This document shows, piece by piece, positions 1,407-41,597 of a DNA stretch of 60,982 nucleotides. Numbering within the stretch: position 1 is the stretch's first letter; each line of letters begins with the position of its first letter. The translations under genes and the position numbers were made by a program. The notes below the pieces were generated by a model, which did not search any database, was not told where the DNA came from, and worked only from the letters and a program-made list of their open reading frames with translations. Source of the stretch: Chloroflexota bacterium. Its GTDB lineage: Bacteria > Chloroflexota > Anaerolineae > DTLA01. The stretch is taken from the NCBI GenBank assembly GCA_014360805.1, contig JACIWU010000008.1:1-60982 (forward strand), in the 5' to 3' direction.

Positions 1407-2515
1407 GTCTGGCTCATCACCTCGTGATAGACTTCCAGGGTCTGGCGGGCGGTCTTCTCCCACGAGAAGCAGGACGCGCGCGCGATCCCCTTGGCCCGCA
1501 TCTCCTCGCGCAGGCGCGGGTCGCTCAGCACGCGCCACATGGCCACCGCAATGGCCTCGGCGTCGTGGGGCGGCACCAGAATGCCGGCGTCGCCCACCAC
1601 CTCGGGCAGCGAGGAGACGTTGGAGACGATGACCGGCGTGCCGCACGCCATGGCTTCCAGCGCGGGCAAGCCGAACCCCTCGTAGAACGACGGCATGACC
1701 AGCGCGCGCGCCGTGTTGTACAGGTACAACAGGTCTTCGGGCGGAACCTGCTGGAGGAATATCACATCCTTCTGTAGCCGCAGGCGTTCCACCGCCGCCA
1801 GCGAGTCATCCACCAGCCAGCCCAGTTTTCCCACCACGACCAGTTTCGCCCCGCTGGCGTACCGTTCCAGCAGCAGGCGGAAGGCTTCAAACAGCGTGGG
1901 GAGGTTCTTGCGCGGCTCAATCGTGCTGACAAACAGGACGAACTCGTCGGAGATGCCGTAGCGCTGGCGGACGGCGGCCATGGCCTGTTCGTCGTCAACG
2001 GGGCGGAACAGGGGGTTGGCGGCCTCGTAGATGACCGAAATCTTGGACTCGGAGACGCCCAGCAGCCGCTGTAAATCCTCGGAGGTGCTCTGCGACACGG
2101 CGATGATGTGGTCGGTGTTGCGCACGGCCACGTCAATCTGGCCGTAGTAGTTGGCGCTTTCGCGGGTCATGAACTGTGGGAACAGGAGGAACGCCAGGTC
2201 GTGCACCGTGATGACCGACAGACAGTTACGGCGGAACGGCGGGATGAAATCCGGGCTGTGGAGGAGATCCAGCCTCAAGCCGCGGATCTCCGCCGGCAAA
2301 GTCCATTGTTCCAGCCGGTGGTGGCTGGGCGTCCAGACCGAGTGGCGTCGGAAGTTTGGGCGCTGCACCAATGGGGCCTTGTCCCTACGATGCTGGAGAA
2401 TCACGTACTCGTTGCCGGTGTCCAGGTTCGCCAGTTGTGAGACCAGTTGAAGAATATATTGCGCGATGCCTGCTTGGGTATAGTGCACCAGGCGCGCGTC
2501 AATCCCAATCCGCAT
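1403..2515 (-). CDS. Glycosyltransferase family 4
   Basis: 370 residues. The protein begins MRIGIDARLVHYTQAGIAQY, typical of GT4 enzymes of the mannosyl/rhamnosyltransferase type, and carries the donor-binding signature FYEGFGLPALEAMACGTPV around residues 276-294. It probably extends a polysaccharide or glycolipid on the cytoplasmic face of the membrane. The ATG at 2513-2515 follows a GGGAG Shine-Dalgarno at normal spacing; extension upstream to 2830 would run through a repeat element and is rejected. It overlaps the next glycosyltransferase by 4 bp. Acceptor and sugar are unknown. Confidence 0.92.
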   Translation of the reverse strand: MRIGIDARLVHYTQAGIAQYILQLVSQLANLDTGNEYVILQHRRDKAPLVQRPNFRRHSVWTPSHHRLEQWTLPAEIRGLRLDLLHSPDFIPPFRRNCLSVITVHDLAFLLFPQFMTRESANYYGQIDVAVRNTDHIIAVSQSTSEDLQRLLGVSESKISVIYEAANPLFRPVDDEQAMAAVRQRYGISDEFVLFVSTIEPRKNLPTLFEAFRLLLERYASGAKLVVVGKLGWLVDDSLAAVERLRLQKDVIFLQQVPPEDLLYLYNTARALVMPSFYEGFGLPALEAMACGTPVIVSNVSSLPEVVGDAGILVPPHDAEAIAVAMWRVLSDPRLREEMRAKGIARASCFSWEKTARQTLEVYHEVMSQT

Positions 2516-2750
2516 GAGCGATTTTCTCCCTGTGTTCAGATGGTTCGGCGGTTCCACCTCCCACGGCAGTGGGGGGCCAGGGATCAAATCGGGCAACATC
2601 GGCCGGTCTGACCCAGTCGTGGCGTCCTTGCACGGCCTATGATACCAGCATGGGGTGTTTCCGTCAAACGGGGGACGCCCGAGACGCGCTCCAAACTCTG
2701 TTGGTCGCGGCGTGAGCACAGGCGCGACGCACCTTGCACTGACACAAGTT

Positions 2751-2808
2751 CGTAGGGCGGCTTCCCATAGCCGCCGCGGGCGGGGGGTAGGTATGGCAAC
2801 CTGCCCTA
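2751..2808. repeat. Dispersed intergenic repeat B, copy 1
   Basis: The unit CGTAGGGCGGCTTCCCATAG followed by CCGCC and a G-rich stretch ending CCTGCCCTA. It is related to 56496-56578, 60684-60755 and 60829-60908. GGCGGCT pairs with AGCCGCC to give a small hairpin. Just upstream, 2722-2739 resembles half of repeat C (GCGCGACGCACC). The rest of 2516-2900 holds the promoter below and nothing else recognisable. Confidence 0.75.
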
Positions 2809-2829
2809 ACTCCACCGGAATATATCCCA

Positions 2830-2858
2830 TTGACGTGTGAACAAAACTGTTCTATAAT
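2830..2858 (+). promoter_or_regulatory. Sigma-70-type promoter of the winged-helix regulator
   Basis: TTGACG (2830-2835), 17-bp spacer, TATAAT (2853-2858). The start codon lies 43 bp downstream of the -10 hexamer. Confidence 0.8.
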
Positions 2859-2900
2859 ACATCTAGCCTACACCGTGCCCGAACGAGAAGGGGAAGCGCC

Positions 2901-3605
2901 GTGGCAAGGATCGTGCTGATTTCGGATGACCTGGAACTTTCGCGCGAGGTGGCCCAACGCCTGGAAGCGAAAGGCCATGTAGTCATCCCTCTGGAATGCC
3001 TGGAGTCGCGCTTCTACCAGGCGGTGCAACTGCGGCCTGACCTGCTGGTGGCCGACTTCGCCTCCATGTCGCGCGAGGCCTCCGCGGCGTTCCAGCGGGC
3101 GCTGGCCACGTTGAACCCCAAGTGCTCGGTGTTGGGCATCTTCGGCGCGTTGGACGTGGTGCGCAGCCTGCCCGCGCTGGTGGGCACCGCCGACGCCCTT
3201 GCCGCGAAACAGGCGAACCGCAAGGCCCAGCCCGCCAGCGGCGAGTACGGCTTCATGAGCCTGGACGTCCACCGCCGCGAGGTTACCATCCGCGGCGTCA
3301 GCATTCCCCTCACGCCGACCGAAACCCACATCCTGTCCATCCTGGCGGCCAACGTGGGCCGGTATGTCAGCCCCAAGTCCATCGCATCCGAGATTCAGGG
3401 GTACGAGGTGGACGATCGGGAGGCCGGCGAAATCGTGCGCGTGCACATCCACAACCTGCGGCGCAAGTTCCAGAAGGCCGGCATCGGCCCCCCGTACATC
3501 GTCAGTTCGCGCGGCAAGGGGTATCTTTTGGAGCGCCGCACGCGGCCCCGCACCGGCAGGGCCAAGGGCCTTGGCGGGCTGCTGGATTCATCCCCGTCGC
3601 GCTAG
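2901..3605 (+). CDS. OmpR/PhoB-type winged-helix regulator with degenerate receiver
   Basis: 234 residues. Residues 1-100 have receiver-like topology (RIVLISDDLELSREVAQRL, then DLLVADF with a possible phospho-Asp at D52) but lack the usual acidic pair and the conserved Thr/Lys context, so phosphorylation is doubtful. Residues 115-215 are a C-terminal winged-helix effector domain (LTPTETHILSILAAN, HIHNLRRKF, SSRGKGYLL), the DNA-binding half of PhoB-like proteins. GTG start. It has its own strong promoter and no partner kinase directly beside it. The nearest kinase is at 10606, and the c-di-GMP/subtilase block begins about 300 bp downstream, so it is a candidate regulator of that block. That link is inference. 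Confidence 0.85.
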   Translation: MARIVLISDDLELSREVAQRLEAKGHVVIPLECLESRFYQAVQLRPDLLVADFASMSREASAAFQRALATLNPKCSVLGIFGALDVVRSLPALVGTADALAAKQANRKAQPASGEYGFMSLDVHRREVTIRGVSIPLTPTETHILSILAANVGRYVSPKSIASEIQGYEVDDREAGEIVRVHIHNLRRKFQKAGIGPPYIVSSRGKGYLLERRTRPRTGRAKGLGGLLDSSPSR

Positions 3606-3696
3606 CCCGCTCGCGCAGGGGAACCCTCGCCGCTGTTACCCTAGGCGAAGGGCCTGATAGGCTAGCGTCCACGAATAGCACGAATCCGCAAATCTA

Positions 3697-3771
3697 GGGA
3701 GGTCGCACGCTCGGTTGGCGCTGCTCTCTCGGCAGTCCTCGTAGGGCAAATTGCCAATTTGCCCTACGTCC
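3697..3771. repeat. Dispersed intergenic repeat A, copy 2
   Basis: Second copy of the 28-101 unit, with the same 14-1-14 perfect inverted repeat at 3740-3768. It lies between the winged-helix regulator and the riboswitch promoter. Confidence 0.85.
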
Positions 3772-3833
3772 AGCGCGTTCCATTCACGCTGCGCGTTGCC
3801 GTGGCACGTCCCCGGTGGTCCCCAATCATGTTC

Positions 3834-3887
3834 TGCGTTAAGAAACCTGAACATTGGGCGGCCTTCGTCTTTAGACATCTTAACGCA
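3834..3887. promoter_or_regulatory. 10-bp inverted repeat, candidate operator
   Basis: TGCGTTAAGA at 3834-3843 and its exact reverse complement TCTTAACGCA at 3878-3887, 34 bp apart. The right arm ends 16 bp before the TG of the extended -10 promoter. The same 10-mer recurs at 49381-49390 in front of the Cys-rich secreted gene. Spaced half-sites upstream of a -10 with no good -35 fit an activator, but the bound protein is unknown. Confidence 0.55.
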
Positions 3888-3903
3888 CAGCCGCATTTGC
3901 ACA

Positions 3904-3912
3904 TGATATAAT
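3904..3912 (+). promoter_or_regulatory. Extended -10 promoter of the riboswitch/subtilase operon
   Basis: TGATATAAT gives the TGn extension plus a perfect TATAAT (3907-3912). No convincing -35 hexamer is visible at 16-18 bp, which suits an extended -10 or activator-dependent promoter. Transcription would begin near 3919, about 70 nt before the riboswitch. Confidence 0.7.
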
Positions 3913-3984
3913 GAGGCAGATTCACAGAAGATTCACGCCGCCGCCCCCTTGCCCGACACCCAAGCCACCAAGAGGCAACTGAAT

Positions 3985-4090
3985 AGCGGCGAGGTTCCGA
4001 TAAGGGCAAACCACGGGTGACCGTGGGACGCAAAGCTACGGGTCTTGAGGCCTCCACCCAAGATTGCCGGGCCGCCGAAGAACCTCATGT
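3985..4090 (+). ncRNA. Cyclic-di-GMP class I (GEMM) riboswitch
   Basis: The GEMM-I core is visible: GGCAAACC (4004-4011), a stem ACGG/CCGT closed by a GTGA (GNRA) tetraloop, GGGACGCAAAGC (4025-4036), then a second stem-loop containing GGTCTTG...CAAGATTGCCG. The closing helix P1 pairs GAGGTTC (3991-3997) with GAACCTC (4080-4086). In known GEMM RNAs the tetraloop docks into the P2 receptor and the ligand sits at the three-way junction. It is in the 5' leader of the SVNWG mini-gene and the two subtilases. Whether ligand turns expression on or off is not evident. Confidence 0.9.
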
Positions 4091-4101
4091 TGTTTAGGTA
4101 G

Positions 4102-4138
4102 TCCCATTCGCCCCCCCAGGGAAGCATCGGTCATGGGA
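4102..4138 (+). promoter_or_regulatory. Putative start-codon-sequestering hairpin (expression platform)
   Basis: TCCCAT (4102-4107) is complementary to ATGGGA (4133-4138), which contains the mini-gene start codon; the Shine-Dalgarno-like AGGGAAG (4118-4124) would lie in the loop. This would make control translational. It is only a 6-bp helix, and alternative pairings of the C-run at 4110-4117 with the SD are also possible. Confidence 0.35.
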
Positions 4139-4189
4139 AACGAGCCGTATCGCAACTTCGGCAGCCAGAACAGCGTGAACTGGGGATAG
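4133..4189 (+). CDS. SVNWG micropeptide (18 aa)
   Basis: A complete 19-codon frame encodes MGNEPYRNFGSQNSVNWG. It has an ATG preceded by AGGGAAG and ends 25 bp before the first subtilase start. Its last five residues are exactly the SVNWG unit arrayed at the C-termini of the two subtilases downstream, which is very unlikely by chance. The peptide has no signal sequence, so it is not exported by Sec as it stands. It lies directly behind the c-di-GMP riboswitch. Possible roles are a leader peptide for translational control, a docking or decoy peptide for whatever recognises VNWG, or the remnant tail of a deleted third subtilase. I cannot choose among these. Confidence 0.6.
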   Translation: MGNEPYRNFGSQNSVNWG

Positions 4190-4214
4190 AACCAACATCC
4201 GTAGGAGGCCGATC

Positions 4215-5798
4215 GTGAGGACCCGAATAGGTCGTTTTTACAGGCTACCCTCGTACCTGGTTCTCGTCTTGTGCCTGCTCCTTGCCACCTTGTTCCCCGC
4301 CGCGCAACCTCTCGCCCGTCCCTTGCCCGTTGACCCCGCCCTGCGCGCGCTGTTGGCGCAGGCCGACGGCGATACCCGCGTTGCCGTCATCGTGCAGAAG
4401 GCCAGCGTGTGCGACGAGGCCGAAGCCCTGGTGAGGAGGCTCGGCGGCGAAGTTGTCCGTTCGTGGACCATCATTCCGGCGTTCCTGGCGAACCTGTCGG
4501 CCGACGCCGTGCAGCAACTCGCCCGGAGCGGGCTGGTGCGCTGGATTTCGTGGGACAGCCCCATGGTGCGCCAGGACACCGGCCAGCCTGACGCGGTATC
4601 ACTCATCGGCGCGTATCTCAACGCGTACAACCCCACCATCGGCGCGACCACGGCGTGGAACTACGGCTTCAGGGGCGAAGGCATCACGGTCGCCGTGGTA
4701 GATAGCGGCATAACGCCGAAGACCGACTTCCTCGCGACCTCATACGGCCTGACGCGCACAAGCCGACTGGTAGCCAACCTGACCTTCGCCAATACGATCC
4801 TCGCCTACAGCAGCCGCGTGAACACCTCTCCGTACGACTTCTTCGGGCATGGCACGCACATCGCGGGCATCATCGGCAGCAACGCGGCCAGTTCTTCCGG
4901 TTCCTTCATGGGCGTGGCGCCGGCAGTCAACCTGGTCAACCTGCGCGTCGCCGACCTCAACGGCCGCGCCTTTGAGTCCGACATGGTGGACGCGCTCCAG
5001 TGGATTTACGAGCACCACAAGGAGTACAACATCCGCGTCGTCAACATCTCCATGAACTCGGCCACCGCGCAGTCATACCACACCAGCCCGCTGGACGCCG
5101 CGCTGGAAATCCTGTGGTTCAACGGAATCGTGGTGGTGGTGTCGGCGGGCAACAACGGCGGCGTTTCTACGATGGGCATTGTGCCCGGCATCCTGTATCC
5201 GCCGGCCAACGACCCGTTCGTGATCACCGTGGGCGCGTCCGACGACATGGGCACGCCCTATACGTGGGATGACTTCGTAACGCCCTTCTCGGCCTATGGC
5301 ATCACCGAGGACGGCTTCGCGAAGCCCGAATTGGTGGCCCCGGGCGCGCACATCATCAATCTGCTGGCCAGCCCCGACTGCACCATCGCCGTTCAGCATC
5401 CCGAGGCTCTCTATTCCAACAACTTCCTGCGACTGTCGGGCACGTCCATGGCGGCTGGCGTGGCGAGCGGGGCCATCGCCCTTTTGCTCCAGGCCCGGCC
5501 CGGCTTGAACCCCGACCAGGTGAAATGGGCGCTGATGCATTCGGCCACGCCGCTGCGGCAGCCGGGGGCGGGCGCGGGCATCCTCAATGTGTGGGCCGCC
5601 ATCAACCTCGGCAAATACGACGCGGCCAACACCGGCACCGTAGCCAGCAAACTCCTGTGGACAGGCGATGAACCCGTCAACTGGGGCAGCGTCAATTGGG
5701 GTTCGGTCAACTGGGGCAGTGTGAACTGGGGTTCCGTGAATTGGGGCAGCGTCAACTGGGGTTCGGTCAACTGGGGTTCCGTGAACTGGGGCTACTAG
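4215..5798 (+). CDS. Secreted S8 subtilase with eight-unit VNWGS C-terminal array
   Basis: 527 residues. There is an N-terminal signal sequence (hydrophobic 14-30), an I9-like propeptide (about 50-118) and a subtilisin domain with D163 (VVDSG), H212 (GHGTH), oxyanion N313 (SAGN) and S411 (GTSMA), so the full catalytic machinery is present. The last 43 residues are PVNWG followed by seven SVNWG units and a final Tyr, encoded by eight 15-bp repeats with varied synonymous codons. It lacks an LPXTG or other known sorting motif. The GTG start has a perfect AGGAGG at 6-bp spacing. It is the first large gene of the c-di-GMP-riboswitch operon. The tail could be a surface anchor, a substrate for self-processing or a recognition tag; this is not established. 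Confidence 0.93.
   Translation: MRTRIGRFYRLPSYLVLVLCLLLATLFPAAQPLARPLPVDPALRALLAQADGDTRVAVIVQKASVCDEAEALVRRLGGEVVRSWTIIPAFLANLSADAVQQLARSGLVRWISWDSPMVRQDTGQPDAVSLIGAYLNAYNPTIGATTAWNYGFRGEGITVAVVDSGITPKTDFLATSYGLTRTSRLVANLTFANTILAYSSRVNTSPYDFFGHGTHIAGIIGSNAASSSGSFMGVAPAVNLVNLRVADLNGRAFESDMVDALQWIYEHHKEYNIRVVNISMNSATAQSYHTSPLDAALEILWFNGIVVVVSAGNNGGVSTMGIVPGILYPPANDPFVITVGASDDMGTPYTWDDFVTPFSAYGITEDGFAKPELVAPGAHIINLLASPDCTIAVQHPEALYSNNFLRLSGTSMAAGVASGAIALLLQARPGLNPDQVKWALMHSATPLRQPGAGAGILNVWAAINLGKYDAANTGTVASKLLWTGDEPVNWGSVNWGSVNWGSVNWGSVNWGSVNWGSVNWGSVNWGY
5676..5795 (+). repeat. Eight tandem 15-bp repeats encoding VNWGS
   Basis: Period 15, consensus GTSAAYTGGGGYWSB. Synonymous differences between units (GTC/GTG, AAC/AAT, AGC/TCG/TCC/AGT) point to selection on the peptide and not to a recent DNA slippage event alone. 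Confidence 0.95.
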
Positions 5799-5845
5799 CA
5801 GAAGCGCGGCAATGACGCCGCAAAAGAATGGAGGTCAGAGAACGC

Positions 5846-7480
5846 ATGGTCAAAGCAGGCAGACGACTCGTGTGGAGACTGGCGCTCACGGTTGCGGTCT
5901 TGATGACCCTTCTGGCCGGGCTTGTCCCGAGTCCTGCGTCTGCCCTGCCCCCCAGGCTAGACGAAGAACTGGCGGCACGTGCAGCCCGCCCTACCGACGG
6001 CATGGCGCCGGTCATCGTGCGCGTGTACGAGGACGCGGCGTCGGTCAAGGCCCTCGTGGAGCGCCTCGGCGGCCAACTTGGTGTGGATTTGGAGTTTATC
6101 CAGGCGTTCGCGGCGCGGGTTCCCGAAAGCGCGCTGGCGACCCTTGCCAGCGACCCGCGTGTGCGCTGGGTGTCCTACGACCGGCCCATCCTGCCGCAGG
6201 ATGATGGCGAGGCCGTTGAGACCGAATGGACGCCGCGGTTGGACCGCATCGCCAACACCTACAACTTCACCATCGGCGCCGACCGCGTCTGGGCCGAAGG
6301 CATAACCGGCAAAGGCGTAACCGTCGCCGTCGTGGACAGCGGCGTGCAGTACCATCCCGACCTCCTGCGCAGCATCTTGCTGGGGTGGAGCATCTTCGCC
6401 ACGGGGCTGCCCTCCCATGTGGATCAGTACGGCCACGGCACCCACGTGGCCGGCATCATCACGGGCGATGGGATGTTCAGCGGCGGCAAGTATGTGGGGA
6501 TCGCGCCCGACGCGAAGATTCTCCCCGTGCGCGTGTGCGACGCGACAGGGGCCAGCAGCGAGTCCTCGCTCGTCGCGGGCCTCCAGTGGGTGTACTACAA
6601 CCGCCGACTGTACAACATCCGCGTCGTCAACGTCTCGCTCAATTCCGACAGCCTTGTTTCGTACCACGAAAGCCCGCTGGACGCTGCGCTGGAGATTCTG
6701 TGGTTCAACCGCATCGTGGTTGTCGTCTCGGCCGGCAACAGCCACGACGTTGTGTACCCGCCCGCCAACGATCCGTTCGTCATCACCGTGGGCGCGGTGG
6801 ACGAGCACGGCACGCGCACCACCGCCGACGACACCATCGCGCCGTTCTCCGGCTACGGCACCACACCCGAAGGGTTCTCCAAGCCCGACCTGGTGGCACC
6901 GGGCGTCAACATCGTGAGCACGCTGTCGTACACCGGCTGTCGGTTGAGCCGCGAGCATCCCGACCACCGCGTGGGCACCCGCTACTTCCGCCTGTCGGGC
7001 ACGTCCATGGCGGCGGCCGTAACCAGCGGCGCGGTGGCGCTTCTGCTCCAGGCCCGCCCCGACCTGAACCCTGACCAGGTCAAGATGCTGCTCAAAGCCT
7101 CGGCCACGCCGCTGAACCAGACCGGCGCCGGCGCGGGACTCCTGAACATCTACAGCGCCCTTCACCTGCAAGACGCGGGCACTGCCAACACGGGCACGCC
7201 CGCCTCGGCCCTTCTGTGGACCGGATCCGACCCCGTCAACTGGGGCTCGGTGAACTGGGGGTCGGTCAATTGGGGCAGCGTCAACTGGGGTTCGGTCAAC
7301 TGGGGTTCCGTGAACTGGGGCAGCGTCAACTGGGGTTCGGTGGATTGCTCCTCGGTCAATTGGGGGCGCAAGCCGCGCATCCCGGTTTCCATCAACTGGA
7401 CCTGGAATTCGCCCCGCTCGGTGAATTGGGGCTGGGCACCCGCCCGCTCGGTGAACTGGGGCGGCGACCCGCGCAAATAG
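5846..7480 (+). CDS. Secreted S8 subtilase with degenerate VNWG C-terminal array
   Basis: 544 residues and a close paralogue of the preceding gene. It has a signal sequence (about 8-33), a propeptide, and a catalytic triad at D164 (VVDSG), H197 (GHGTH) and S387 (GTSMA), with oxyanion N298. The tail begins with seven PVNWG/SVNWG units and then decays: SVDCSS, SVNWGRKP, SINWTW, RSVNWGW, RSVNWGG, ending DPRK. I chose ATG 5846 because the ATG at 5828 lies inside the GGAGG Shine-Dalgarno region; the gap to the first subtilase is 47 bp, so they share the riboswitch transcript. The catalytic domains have diverged more than the repeat tails, which implies the tail is the conserved functional feature. 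A terminator follows. Confidence 0.92.
   Translation: MVKAGRRLVWRLALTVAVLMTLLAGLVPSPASALPPRLDEELAARAARPTDGMAPVIVRVYEDAASVKALVERLGGQLGVDLEFIQAFAARVPESALATLASDPRVRWVSYDRPILPQDDGEAVETEWTPRLDRIANTYNFTIGADRVWAEGITGKGVTVAVVDSGVQYHPDLLRSILLGWSIFATGLPSHVDQYGHGTHVAGIITGDGMFSGGKYVGIAPDAKILPVRVCDATGASSESSLVAGLQWVYYNRRLYNIRVVNVSLNSDSLVSYHESPLDAALEILWFNRIVVVVSAGNSHDVVYPPANDPFVITVGAVDEHGTRTTADDTIAPFSGYGTTPEGFSKPDLVAPGVNIVSTLSYTGCRLSREHPDHRVGTRYFRLSGTSMAAAVTSGAVALLLQARPDLNPDQVKMLLKASATPLNQTGAGAGLLNIYSALHLQDAGTANTGTPASALLWTGSDPVNWGSVNWGSVNWGSVNWGSVNWGSVNWGSVNWGSVDCSSVNWGRKPRIPVSINWTWNSPRSVNWGWAPARSVNWGGDPRK
7235..7476 (+). repeat. VNWG-coding repeat array, partly degenerate
   Basis: Seven near-perfect 15-bp units followed by four more widely spaced variants whose linkers carry Arg/Pro. 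The repeated peptide is the same as at 5676-5795 and 4175-4186. Confidence 0.93.
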
Positions 7481-37813: not shown

Positions 37814-38033
37814 GGTTGTGCGATCTGCGCTCCGTAGTCTATGGGCATTATAGCGGGCGCGGGGAGAATGGCAAAACGCGACGTGGGGCACGCGGCGGAA
37901 CACGACCATCGCGGGCCGACATGAGTGGCGGATTTTGGCGAAACGGTGAACCTGTGGCAAAGTATGCGGGTCTATTGTTTAGGGCCCACGCAGGCATCCT
38001 GCTGCAAACCTGCTGCCCGTCGGAGAGAGGACT

Positions 38034-41000
38034 ATGCTCGCACGGTTTGCGCTGCGCCGCATCGTTGCCGGAATCCTGGTGTTGTTCGCCATCACCTACG
38101 TGGCGTACTTCACCCAGGACCTGGCCATGCGCCAGCGCCTGCTGCAACCCGCGCCCATCGGCGAAGTCGCGCAGCAGGCATGGGGGCAGACGCTGACCCT
38201 GTGGAAGGGCATCCCTCGCGGCGACTGGGGGGAGTACACCCGCAGCACGGGCTACATGCTCCGCCAGGGCGAGCGCGTACCCATCGCGCAACTGGTTAGG
38301 ACCTCGCTGTGGAACAGTTCGGTGCTGTTGCTGCTGGCGCTGGTCTTCGGCGGCGTGGTCGGGGGGCTGCTGGGCATCGCGGCCGCCGCGATCCGCCGAC
38401 GGACCGTGTCGTTGTCCATGCTTCTGCTTTCCGTCATCGGCGTGTCCACTCCCAGTTTCTTCCTGGCCGTGCTGCTGCAATTGGGGGCGATTGAGTTCTA
38501 CAAGCGCACGGGTACGCGGCTGGTGCCCGTCGGGGGGTTCGGCTGGGACTCCCACATGGTGTTGCCGGTGCTGGTGCTGGCGGCGCGGCCCGTGGCCCAG
38601 GTGGCGCGCCTCACCTCGGTGTACATGGAGAACCTCATCGGCGAGGACTTCGTGCGCACAGCGCGCGCCAAAGGGCTGCCCAGTTCCGAGATCTGGTTCG
38701 GTCACATTCTGCCGAATGCCGCCGGGACCGTGCTCACGGCCATCGTGTCCTCGCTGCGGTTCGCGCTCAGCAGCCTGCCGGTGGTGGAGGTTTTCTTCGG
38801 GTGGCCGGGCCTGGGCAAGCATCTGCTGGAGCGCCTTCAGGTCTACGACATGGACGCGGCATCCGCGTTGGTGCTGGCAACGGGGTTCTTCTTCGTCCTG
38901 GTGAACGGTATCATGGATTTTGCCTATCGGTTGCTGGATCCGCGGTTGCGTCGCGCACAGGATACGGGTTCGGCGCAGATGGAGATCAGCAACTGGCTGG
39001 AACTGGCGTGGACGGGCCTTGTGCGCGCCATTACCCTGCGGGGGCTGCGCGAACGGCGCAGAAAAGCGAAGGATCTGGCTCCCCTGCCGGTGGACGCCCG
39101 CATGAGCCAGGAGTCGGCAGAGGAGATGTCGCGCCTGGCGCAGTCCATGCGCTGGGGGCGGCTCCGTGCGTGGCGCAAGGCGACGGTCGGCAATCCTGCG
39201 CTGGCCCTCGGCGCGATTTTGGGCGTGGGGTTGCTGGTCGTCGTTCTGGCGGGGCCGAGTCTGGCGCCCCACAACCCCTACACGACGGCGAGCCGCGTGG
39301 ACATCGGGGGAATCACGTACACGCCGCCGTTCAGGCCGTCGGACGTCTTCCCGCTGGGGAGCGATGCGCAAGGGCGCGACATTCTGAGCCTACTGCTCAC
39401 GGGCGCGCGCCGCACCCTGATGTTGGCCCTGCTGGCCGTGGCGGGCCGGCTGGTCATCGGCGGGGTTTTCGGATTCCTCGCAGGCTGGTTTCACGACACG
39501 CTGCTGGACCGCGCGCTGATGGCCCTGGGCGAGATGGTGAATTCGTTCCCCGCGTTGCTCCTGGCGACGCTGGTGGTCTATGCGGCCGGCATACGCCAGG
39601 GGCTGTATGCGTTCGTGTTCGGCCTGCTGGTCATCGGCTGGCCGGAGGTGATGCAGAACATCCGCGCCCAGGTCATTTCGGTGCGCCCCATGGCGTACAT
39701 TGAGGGCGCCGTCGCGACGGGCGCGGGGCAAGGTCAGATTCTCACGCGGCACGTCCTGCCCAACATCTGGCCCACGATGGTCAGCCTCGCGTTTCTGGAG
39801 ATGGGTGGCGCCCTCATGATTCTGGGGGAACTGGGGTTCTTGGGCGTGTTCATCGGCGGGGGGTTCGCGGCAGAAGGCGAGGGCGGGCCGCCGCTCCTCA
39901 CCTACTACGACATCCCCGAATGGGGCGTGATGCTCGCCAATTCCTGGCGCTCGTTCCGCAGTTTCCCGTGGGCCACGGTGTACCCGGCGCTGGCGTTCCT
40001 GATTGCCATCGTAACCTTCACCCTGATGGGCGAGGGGCTGCGGCGGCTGTCCGAGGAACTGACCTTGAGCATGAAAGCGCTGTTCAATCGCTACACGCTG
40101 CTGGTGGCGTGCGTGGTGCTCGGTGTCGGCGTCTGGACGATGCAGAGCACGGGCATTTGGGCGCGGTACAAGCCGCTGGCCGAGACCTTTGACGTGAATC
40201 GGGCTATGGCGGACGTGGCGACCCTGGCGGGGCCGGAGTTCGGCGGGCGGCAGATTGGCACGCCGGGCGCCGAGGCCGCCGCCGATTGGATCGCACGCCA
40301 ATTTGAGGACTTGGGCCTGGTAACGGCGGGGGAGAACTGGACCTACTTCCAGACGATTCGCAGCCGCATCGTGGCGCTCCAGGGTCAGACGACCCTTGAG
40401 GCGTGGGGCGCGACGGGCCAACACCTGACGCTCCGCATAGGCGTGGACTTCTCCGAAACGACTGAGCTGTTCTCCAGGCAGGCCCTTGTGGCGGAGGGCC
40501 CCATCGTGTATGTGGCCGTGAAGGCTGTGCCCGACGGCAACCTGAGCACGGTCAGGGCTGCTCTTGGGCTGTCGGAGGCCGACGCGACCCGGACAGATCG
40601 CATTCTGTTGCTGGAATACGAAGACAGGTGGCTGACCACGTACCCCTTCTTCTACGGGGCAGGGGCCTCGCCGATGTACATGGGTGCGCAGGCGGCGCTT
40701 GTCATCACCGACGATCCCGACGTGATGCTCCGCCGCGAGTTGCCCGGCTCACCCATGCCCGACACAGGGCTGACGATGCGGCCCATGCCGGTGCTGTGGA
40801 TCACGCCCGACGCGGCAGACCGCATCCTGAGCGGTTCGGGATACAATCTGGCTGCGCTGCGCGACCGCAGGGCGGCACTCGCCGACGGCGAGGGGTTCCA
40901 CGTGGCGACCCGTGCGCGGGCGCGGGCGCAGTTCGCCGCCGTAGAACAGCAGGACATCACTTACCGCAACGTGATGGCCATGTGGCCGGGCGAGGACGTG

Positions 41001-41597
41001 GCGCTGGATTCGGAGATGGTGGTCCTCATGGCCTACTACGACGGGCTGGGCGTGGGCAATGGCGTGCTGTATCCGGGCGCCAACGACAACGCCAGCGGCG
41101 TGGCCACCCTCCTGGAACTCATCCGCTCGTGGAAAGCGTGGGACTTCAAGCCCAAGCGCACGGTGCTGTTTGTGGCCTGGGCCGGCGGGGAACTGCACCA
41201 GACGCCGGCGCTGTACCAGTACCTGGGCACGCGGTCGGGGCTGTCGGACCTGAAGGTTGTGGCTGTCTTTGAGGTGGAGGGCGTGGGCGCGGGCGACGGC
41301 GACGCCGTGCTCGCCTGGCGTTCTAGCAGCGACCGCATCACCGAGATGGTGCAGATGGGCGCGCGAAGGCTCGGCATCACGGTCAAGACGGCGGGCCTCG
41401 GGCTCCACGCGCCCTACCACCTGTCCCAGCGCCTACAGACGAACTACCCGATGATCACCCTGTCGTGGCCGGGCACCGATGCCCATTCGCACATCCCCGG
41501 CGATTCGCCGGATGCCGTGGATGCGGCCAAGATCGGCCGCGCCGGGCGACTGTTGAGCCTGACCGCGGCGGTGTTGGCGACCGACACGGCGTACTAG
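38034..41597 (+). CDS. Fusion: DppB-type permease, DppC-type permease and M28-like domain
   Basis: 1187 residues in one uninterrupted frame. Residues 1-310 are a DppB-type ABC permease with the EAA loop DFVRTARAKGLPSSEIWFG (from about 206). Residues 385-680 are a DppC-type permease with a second EAA loop (AYIEGAVATGAGQGQIL, from about 553). After a last transmembrane helix (about 690) an exported M28 aminopeptidase-fold domain follows: GGRQIGTPGAEAAADWIA, GANDNASGVATLLEL (about 1017), and AHSHIPGDSPD. The M28 His of HxD is Tyr (AYYD), and the EE pair is GGEL, so the catalytic base is missing. Probably a non-catalytic ligand-binding head on a dipeptide-type importer. No ATPase or binding protein is adjacent. 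ATG follows GGAGAGGACT. Confidence 0.92.
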   Translation: MLARFALRRIVAGILVLFAITYVAYFTQDLAMRQRLLQPAPIGEVAQQAWGQTLTLWKGIPRGDWGEYTRSTGYMLRQGERVPIAQLVRTSLWNSSVLLLLALVFGGVVGGLLGIAAAAIRRRTVSLSMLLLSVIGVSTPSFFLAVLLQLGAIEFYKRTGTRLVPVGGFGWDSHMVLPVLVLAARPVAQVARLTSVYMENLIGEDFVRTARAKGLPSSEIWFGHILPNAAGTVLTAIVSSLRFALSSLPVVEVFFGWPGLGKHLLERLQVYDMDAASALVLATGFFFVLVNGIMDFAYRLLDPRLRRAQDTGSAQMEISNWLELAWTGLVRAITLRGLRERRRKAKDLAPLPVDARMSQESAEEMSRLAQSMRWGRLRAWRKATVGNPALALGAILGVGLLVVVLAGPSLAPHNPYTTASRVDIGGITYTPPFRPSDVFPLGSDAQGRDILSLLLTGARRTLMLALLAVAGRLVIGGVFGFLAGWFHDTLLDRALMALGEMVNSFPALLLATLVVYAAGIRQGLYAFVFGLLVIGWPEVMQNIRAQVISVRPMAYIEGAVATGAGQGQILTRHVLPNIWPTMVSLAFLEMGGALMILGELGFLGVFIGGGFAAEGEGGPPLLTYYDIPEWGVMLANSWRSFRSFPWATVYPALAFLIAIVTFTLMGEGLRRLSEELTLSMKALFNRYTLLVACVVLGVGVWTMQSTGIWARYKPLAETFDVNRAMADVATLAGPEFGGRQIGTPGAEAAADWIARQFEDLGLVTAGENWTYFQTIRSRIVALQGQTTLEAWGATGQHLTLRIGVDFSETTELFSRQALVAEGPIVYVAVKAVPDGNLSTVRAALGLSEADATRTDRILLLEYEDRWLTTYPFFYGAGASPMYMGAQAALVITDDPDVMLRRELPGSPMPDTGLTMRPMPVLWITPDAADRILSGSGYNLAALRDRRAALADGEGFHVATRARARAQFAAVEQQDITYRNVMAMWPGEDVALDSEMVVLMAYYDGLGVGNGVLYPGANDNASGVATLLELIRSWKAWDFKPKRTVLFVAWAGGELHQTPALYQYLGTRSGLSDLKVVAVFEVEGVGAGDGDAVLAWRSSSDRITEMVQMGARRLGITVKTAGLGLHAPYHLSQRLQTNYPMITLSWPGTDAHSHIPGDSPDAVDAAKIGRAGRLLSLTAAVLATDTAY

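Follow-up and report, generated by a model that had tools for sequence, protein, structure and literature searches.

From sequence comparison and structure prediction, we identified an unusual permease of the Opp/Dpp type in a 60,982-nucleotide stretch of DNA from a Chloroflexota bacterium (assembly GCA_014360805.1, contig JACIWU010000008.1, positions 1 to 60,982; hereafter the window). A single open reading frame (ORF; 38034-41597) encodes one polypeptide of 1187 residues in which DppB comes first and DppC second, followed by an additional membrane helix and then by an exported domain with the M28 peptidase fold. The peptidase is dead, the permease has lost its scoop and gained an enlarged loop beside the gate, the residues that contact the ATPase are kept, and related permeases carry other domains in place of the peptidase fold. 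We give a probability of about one in two to the reading that this is an Opp-type permease no longer dependent on free solute-binding proteins (SBPs): the pseudopeptidase would be its tethered receptor, and ATPases of the OppD/F type would drive it in trans.

The single chain had been proposed in an earlier note made from the sequence of the window, and the ORF, Pfam and the relatives all uphold it. Two matches to BPD_transp_1 (E 4.2e-46) are followed by one to Peptidase_M28 at residues 979-1175 (E 8.1e-18; 65 bits against a cut-off of 21). The DppB-like half (residues 1-312; 38034..38969; this and all features below are on the + strand) also gives profile matches to E. coli DppB 8z1v_A (E 7e-47) and OppB 8z21_A (1.4e-43), and the DppC-like half (residues 366-676; 39129..40061) gives a phmmer match to E. 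coli DppC 8z1v_B (E 7.9e-22). Between these matches lies a linker with low-confidence stretches in the model (residues 313-365; 38970..39128). An AlphaFold2 model of the full chain has a mean predicted local distance difference test score (pLDDT) of 82 and a predicted template modelling score (pTM) of 0.68. The extra transmembrane helix follows DppC (residues 684-705; 40083..40148); it is modelled at 686-705, and a hydrophobic stretch lies between DppC and the M28-like domain in 61 of the 64 aligned sequences, which comprise 63 of 80 fusion ORFs and the window. Because this one helix separates it from DppC, the M28-fold domain (residues 706-1187; 40149..41594) should lie outside the membrane.

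Structure prediction, a check that the same note had put forward, confirms the M28 fold. Residues 706-1186 superpose on the Vibrio aminopeptidase 3b35 with a Z score of 31.9 (264 residues aligned, 2.4 Å); transferrin receptor 1, which shares the M28 fold, is next at Z about 27, and nicalin is matched by sequence (E 7e-11). In the numbering of the Aeromonas/Vibrio aminopeptidase, we take D117, E152 and H256 to form metal site 1, H97, D117 and D179 to form site 2, and E151 to be the general base. At H97, D117, E151, E152, D179 and H256 the window has Y, D, G, E, E and H. Thus, in the alignment, Tyr1001 (41034..41036) replaces H97, Asp1018 (41085..41087) is the kept equivalent of D117, Gly1052 and Glu1053 (41187..41192) stand for E151 and E152, so that the base is lost and the second Glu is kept, Glu1082 (41277..41279) replaces D179, and His1153 (41490..41492) is the kept equivalent of H256. 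The window copy has therefore lost the general base and the second metal site and retains the first metal triad of Asp1018, Glu1053 and His1153, and it may still hold one metal ion. The three residue-level claims made earlier, that the His of the HxD motif is Tyr, that the general-base Glu is Gly and that GANDNASG (with Asp1018) is kept, are all correct. The loss of the base alone is too narrow a description, since other catalytic and metal-binding residues are gone too, in the window copy and family-wide.

We scored the six residues in 83 domains (88 less five truncated or frame-shifted copies), counting the E151/E152 columns of copies that read 'GEG' from ungapped segments. No domain has all six, none has five, and the maximum of four is reached in seven. 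The D117/E152/H256 triad is kept, with the base and second site gone, in 26 of 83, the window among them. In a further type (40/83), E151 is kept and other ligands are lost; Arg often stands in for D179, and Arg or Gly for H256. The losses take clade-specific forms. The old active-site loops YDG, GANDNASG and GVGAG stay conserved. That no copy is complete argues for an old property of the family rather than one damaged gene, and the alignments support the view that the M28-like domain is a pseudopeptidase throughout. One could instead suppose an active peptidase with displaced residues that trims peptides before uptake, and the fully kept M28 fold and the complete metal triad of the window-like copies would suit this. 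However, the base and both metal sites occur together in 0/83, Arg at D179 (39/83) or H256 (18/83) would oppose metal binding, and in split systems the active-looking M28 domains sit in separate neighbouring proteins. We regard an active enzyme as very unlikely.

Such a split system is present in the genome of the window itself, as a second copy on another contig (C58). There DppB is followed by DppC with the domain, then by a PD40 propeller and last by a protein of 1630 residues that contains two M28 domains. Giants of about 1600 residues adjoin the split system at L050:7845-12737 (the C58 locus), L052, L054, L066, L068, L124 and L133. The L050 protein has an M28, a Peptidase_MA and a second M28 domain by Pfam. 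In the five giants examined, the first M28 domain always keeps all six residues, whereas the second always departs at at least one (Lys or His at D117).

The second departure from ordinary peptide permeases is the loss of the scoop. In E. coli DppB the scoop is made of residues 32-62, which lie between transmembrane helix 1 (TM1) and the helix after it and reach into the cleft of the binding protein DppA, as described in PMC12136057. When a profile of 14 fused DppB was aligned to E. coli DppB, insertions in the E. coli chain fell within the scoop stretch. A YHLxxP-type scoop motif is found in 0/64 fused DppB and in 10/10 neighbouring ordinary OppB, and a scoop-like motif is present in OppB on five other contigs of the window's genome (C56, C57, C12, C31 and C49). 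The motif is likewise absent from 5/5 unfused DppB genes whose DppC partner bears the M28-like domain, and so its loss tracks the tethered domain and not the fusion of B to C. The TM1-TM2 stretch measures 48-76 residues in 37/37 rows of the scoop-less type and 79-107 in all nine of the 13 ordinary rows in which it could be measured; it is 75 residues in the window and 64-76 in 63 fused rows. At the position of the E. coli scoop motif, the window thus has a shortened loop (residues 28-66; 38115..38231). PF19300, the N-terminal DppB family of Pfam, is not found there, and it matches 5/5 ordinary OppB but 0/5 of the scoop-less type.

The loop of DppC beside the gate has changed in the opposite direction. 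This extracytoplasmic loop (residues 602-630; 39837..39923) has 24-31 residues in 37/37 of this type versus 8-10 in 13/13 ordinary OppC, and its GGG (608-610) and PEW (628-630) are invariant in 64/64. Two candidates for further scoop-less permeases were rejected. The OppB on contig C34 of the window's genome has 452 residues, among them a large insert ahead of its permease domain, and its OppC partner has the short loop; we count it as ordinary, though its own loop is odd. A match of 281 residues at locus L081 that lacks the scoop motif reads like a betaine-type permease rather than OppB.

The contacts to the ATPase, by contrast, are preserved. The ATPase-contacting residues of the E. coli permease, as given in PMC12136057, include D235, T239, K243, H254 and N258 of DppB, with which D205, T209, K213, H224 and N228 of the window align (EAA loop; 38646..38717). 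H224 and N228 are kept in 64/64 sequences, K213 in 59, D205 in 58 and T209 in 51. In the EAA loop of DppC (residues 553-577; 39690..39764), E557, G563 and P576 are present in 64/64 and N577 in 49/64. Purpose-built profiles found no SBP or ATPase gene in the window, and SBP_bac_5 and OppD/F genes were not found in the same operon. Other contigs of the same genome contain eight matches to Opp-type ATPase domains and 11 to SBP_bac_5. The claim that no ATPase or SBP gene lies nearby therefore stands for the window but not for the family, in which 10 of 79 loci have genes for ordinary OppB and OppC next to them and, in most cases, SBP or ATPase genes as well. Since the contact residues are kept and sister permeases have an intact OppD-type ATPase, the missing ATPase gene is no clue against transport.

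The position of these permeases was examined in a permease-only tree from which both rebuilt loops and five truncated ordinary rows were left out. With support 100/100 they form a clade apart from ordinary OppBC, and within it the permeases with an M28-like domain group together as one clade (100/99). An earlier tree had taken in 24 of the 64 full-length fusions and four split ones. In sister lineages DppC carries a PQQ beta-propeller, a TPR-LysM tail, an intact OppD-type ATPase, or nothing. The propeller follows an extra helix on DppC and is confirmed by Pfam in two proteins; among 298 genomes of the window's class there are 10 full-length matches to this type and an eleventh, partial one. 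Because the same clade swaps the domains borne by DppC, we interpret the exported part as a receptor-like module that can be exchanged. Because sister permeases are fused to or accompanied by an OppD-type ATPase, an ATPase of the OppD/F type is the expected motor.

Individual sister loci illustrate this variety. At L170, L171 and L191, a scoop-less permease has DppC followed by the extra helix and a PQQ/BamB-like beta-propeller. At L187, one gene row (2318-5289 and 5295-7304) combines ordinary OppBC with a scoop-less DppBC pair, in which DppC has a C-terminal tail that reads as TPR-LysM. At L188:2912-6580 and L190:2939-6598, a small lipoprotein shares an operon with scoop-less DppB and DppC and with an intact OppD-type ATPase. 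No SBP gene was found in the stretch fetched around it, and this operon is the simplest candidate for SBP-free transport.

The same fusion had been worth seeking in relatives, and a pattern scan of named genomes found it in 79 loci, nearly all in Chloroflexota. A match across the junction between DppC and the domain is present in 63 of the 298 sampled class genomes. In a phylum-wide sample of 400 genomes, a threshold of E 1e-16 left only 5 with such a match, and two of these lie outside the class. Three bins labelled Myxococcota or Bipolaricaulota (L122, L123 and L127) have fusions that form one clade within the Chloroflexota tree, which reflects either transfer or a binning error. A genome of the same genus as the window has a relative, in shared surroundings, that is 88% identical to the window protein along the whole chain. 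Against it, the ratio of nonsynonymous to synonymous substitution rates (dN/dS) is 0.10 for DppB and 0.053 for DppC, and the M28-like part reaches 0.166. This purifying selection and the family-wide loss of residues show that the window does not hold one broken gene. Most records are metagenome bins, which might raise the suspicion of an assembly or gene-calling artefact or of a decaying gene. This is refuted by the presence of the same architecture in the cultured isolates Ornatilinea apprima (L081) and Thermanaerothrix daxensis (L095), by the purifying selection, and by the intact window ORF, which has zero internal stops, and we give the idea practically no credence. The ORF is directly preceded by a GGAGAG-type ribosome-binding site (38022..38033; GGAGAGAGGACT). 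Two full-length fusion genes stand in tandem at L081:7626-15184 in O. apprima and at L083:688-8262 in another bin. At L134:7887-11551 the M28-like part is spread over two overlapping frames, probably by a frameshift or an assembly error.

These features can be assembled into the mechanism that we favour. A distinct Opp/Dpp clade has had its extracytoplasmic face remodelled, and the extra helix would hold the pseudopeptidase outside the membrane in place of a free binding protein. The pseudopeptidase would use its old cleft to bind a peptide or peptide-like ligand, which in the window copy may sit around the remaining metal site, and would hand it to the gate directly below. An OppD/OppF-type ATPase whose gene lies elsewhere would energise the permease in trans through the conserved EAA contacts, and import is assumed from the kinship with Opp and Dpp. 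The earlier suggestion that a peptidase fold has been reused as a tethered receptor is borne out as far as the loss of catalysis goes; its receptor part gains real, though indirect, backing from the scoop loss and the domain swaps, and we hold a receptor role for the M28-like domain to be about as likely as not.

Several observations weigh against this mechanism. Sister permeases without any exported domain exist (L186 and L188-L190), so that scoop loss is not always paired with a tethered domain. The loci beside ordinary Opp operons mean that an SBP may still take part there. Deletion of the scoop in E. coli impaired function without abolishing it, according to PMC12136057. The M28-like domain also evolves faster than either permease half, as the dN/dS values above indicate, and its metal-site residues differ among subclades, which does not imply one common ligand.

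The main rival explanation is that the pseudopeptidase is a docking or regulatory platform, which gathers partners such as membrane-anchored beta-propellers and secreted active peptidases at the mouth of the permease, with the ligand coming from these partners or from a conventional SBP. Gene neighbourhoods bear on it, within the limit that many loci are too short to show neighbours. Members of an uncharacterised, conserved family of lipoproteins, about 590 residues long, lie at 12 of 79 loci (L097:6086-7846 and 11 more). The model of this family (pLDDT 84) shows a beta-propeller and, at the C-terminus, membrane helices, and it resembles CylK (Z about 31) and PLL lectins (Z about 28). Another setting among relatives is the split system beside its PD40 propeller and giant M28 protein, in which one M28 domain has the six residues. 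The adjoining ordinary Opp operons at ten loci, and the occurrence of nicalin among the M28-fold non-enzymes found by sequence, would also fit a platform. However, no conserved neighbour of this sort was found around the copy in the window or its nearest relatives (L071, L072, L149, L151 and L153), whose subclade was searched for any conserved gene neighbourhood and showed none. In addition, the scoop is absent in all, and the conserved YDG, GANDNASG and GVGAG loops fit a pocket that is still in use. A platform is possible, but we consider it unlikely.

A further alternative is an exporter, or an extrusion or sensing device, in which an Opp-type permease no longer loads from outside and works with MacB/HlyD-type machinery. 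Directly upstream, the clade nearest to that of the window carries genes for an HlyD protein and a MacB_PCD/FtsX permease. A MacB-type gene adjoins 6 of 79 loci, and these loci usually also have HlyD and, in one chain with DppB and ahead of it, a MacB/LolD-like ATPase domain. At L073, L074, L075, L077 and L101, about 270 N-terminal residues of the fused ORF are this ATPase domain, and chains of the L073 type thus combine a pseudo-ATPase and a pseudopeptidase in one polypeptide. The fused domain is degenerate, with LSGGQ gone in 5/5 and Walker A lost in 3/5. An ATPase built into the chain is therefore true of some relatives, in degenerate form, and the window copy has none. HlyD and MacB/FtsX genes were not found in the window, nor MacB or HlyD at its sister loci, and the OppD-type ATPase fused to or beside sister permeases is of the importer kind. 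On this balance an export role appears improbable.

If the tethered-receptor reading is right, an importer has been rewired to another receptor fold by deleting the scoop, rebuilding the gate loop and tethering a dead peptidase or a propeller, and what the scoop and the SBP are needed for becomes testable. The M28 fusion, present in about a fifth of the sampled class genomes, would gain a function to look for. The results hint at a class of transporters, so far overlooked, that have non-standard receptors built in. More specifically, and more tentatively, we propose an undescribed scoop-less class of type I ATP-binding cassette (ABC) transporters with exchangeable, non-SBP built-in receptors (M28, PQQ or TPR-LysM) and OppD/F ATPases in trans.

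We found no published description of such a permease-M28 fusion in the open-access literature, and comparison with known systems shows where it departs from them. In the type I importers described, the ligand comes from a free or fused protein of the SBP fold, and the scoop of the permease enters its cleft. The window protein resembles the E. coli type I peptide importer DppABCDF (8z1v-8z1z) in the folds of DppB and DppC, the EAA loops and the ATPase-contact residues. In contrast to it, the scoop is gone, the DppC gate loop is enlarged, both halves are in one chain, an extra helix and an exported M28-fold domain are added, and no SBP or ATPase genes lie alongside in the window. Because the scoop is lacking, we have not filed it as a classical SBP-dependent Dpp/Opp importer. 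OpuA and GlnPQ are receptor-fused type I importers whose receptor has the SBP fold; they share with our system an extracytoplasmic, receptor-like domain covalently tethered to the permease, but here that domain has the M28 fold. Likeness to MacAB-type efflux systems (HlyD and MacB) is limited to the sister-clade relatives with HlyD, MacB_PCD/FtsX and the MacB/LolD-like ATPase domain; it differs in that the window and its vicinity have neither HlyD nor MacB and that the fused ATPase of the relatives is degenerate.

The exported domain itself has two sets of relatives. With the M28 aminopeptidases (Aeromonas/Vibrio AAP, BSAP 6hc6 and 2ek8) it shares the fold (Z 30-32) and the flanking motifs, whereas the general base and second metal site are lost and the domain is tethered to an ABC permease. 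Transferrin receptor 1, nicalin and nicastrin are membrane-anchored proteins of the M28 fold with receptor or scaffold roles. Like transferrin receptor 1 and nicalin, the domain is an M28-fold pseudoenzyme and is anchored in the membrane; unlike it, those two are eukaryotic and not part of a transporter chain. If the receptor role is correct, the window protein would be a bacterial parallel to M28-fold receptors such as transferrin receptor 1.

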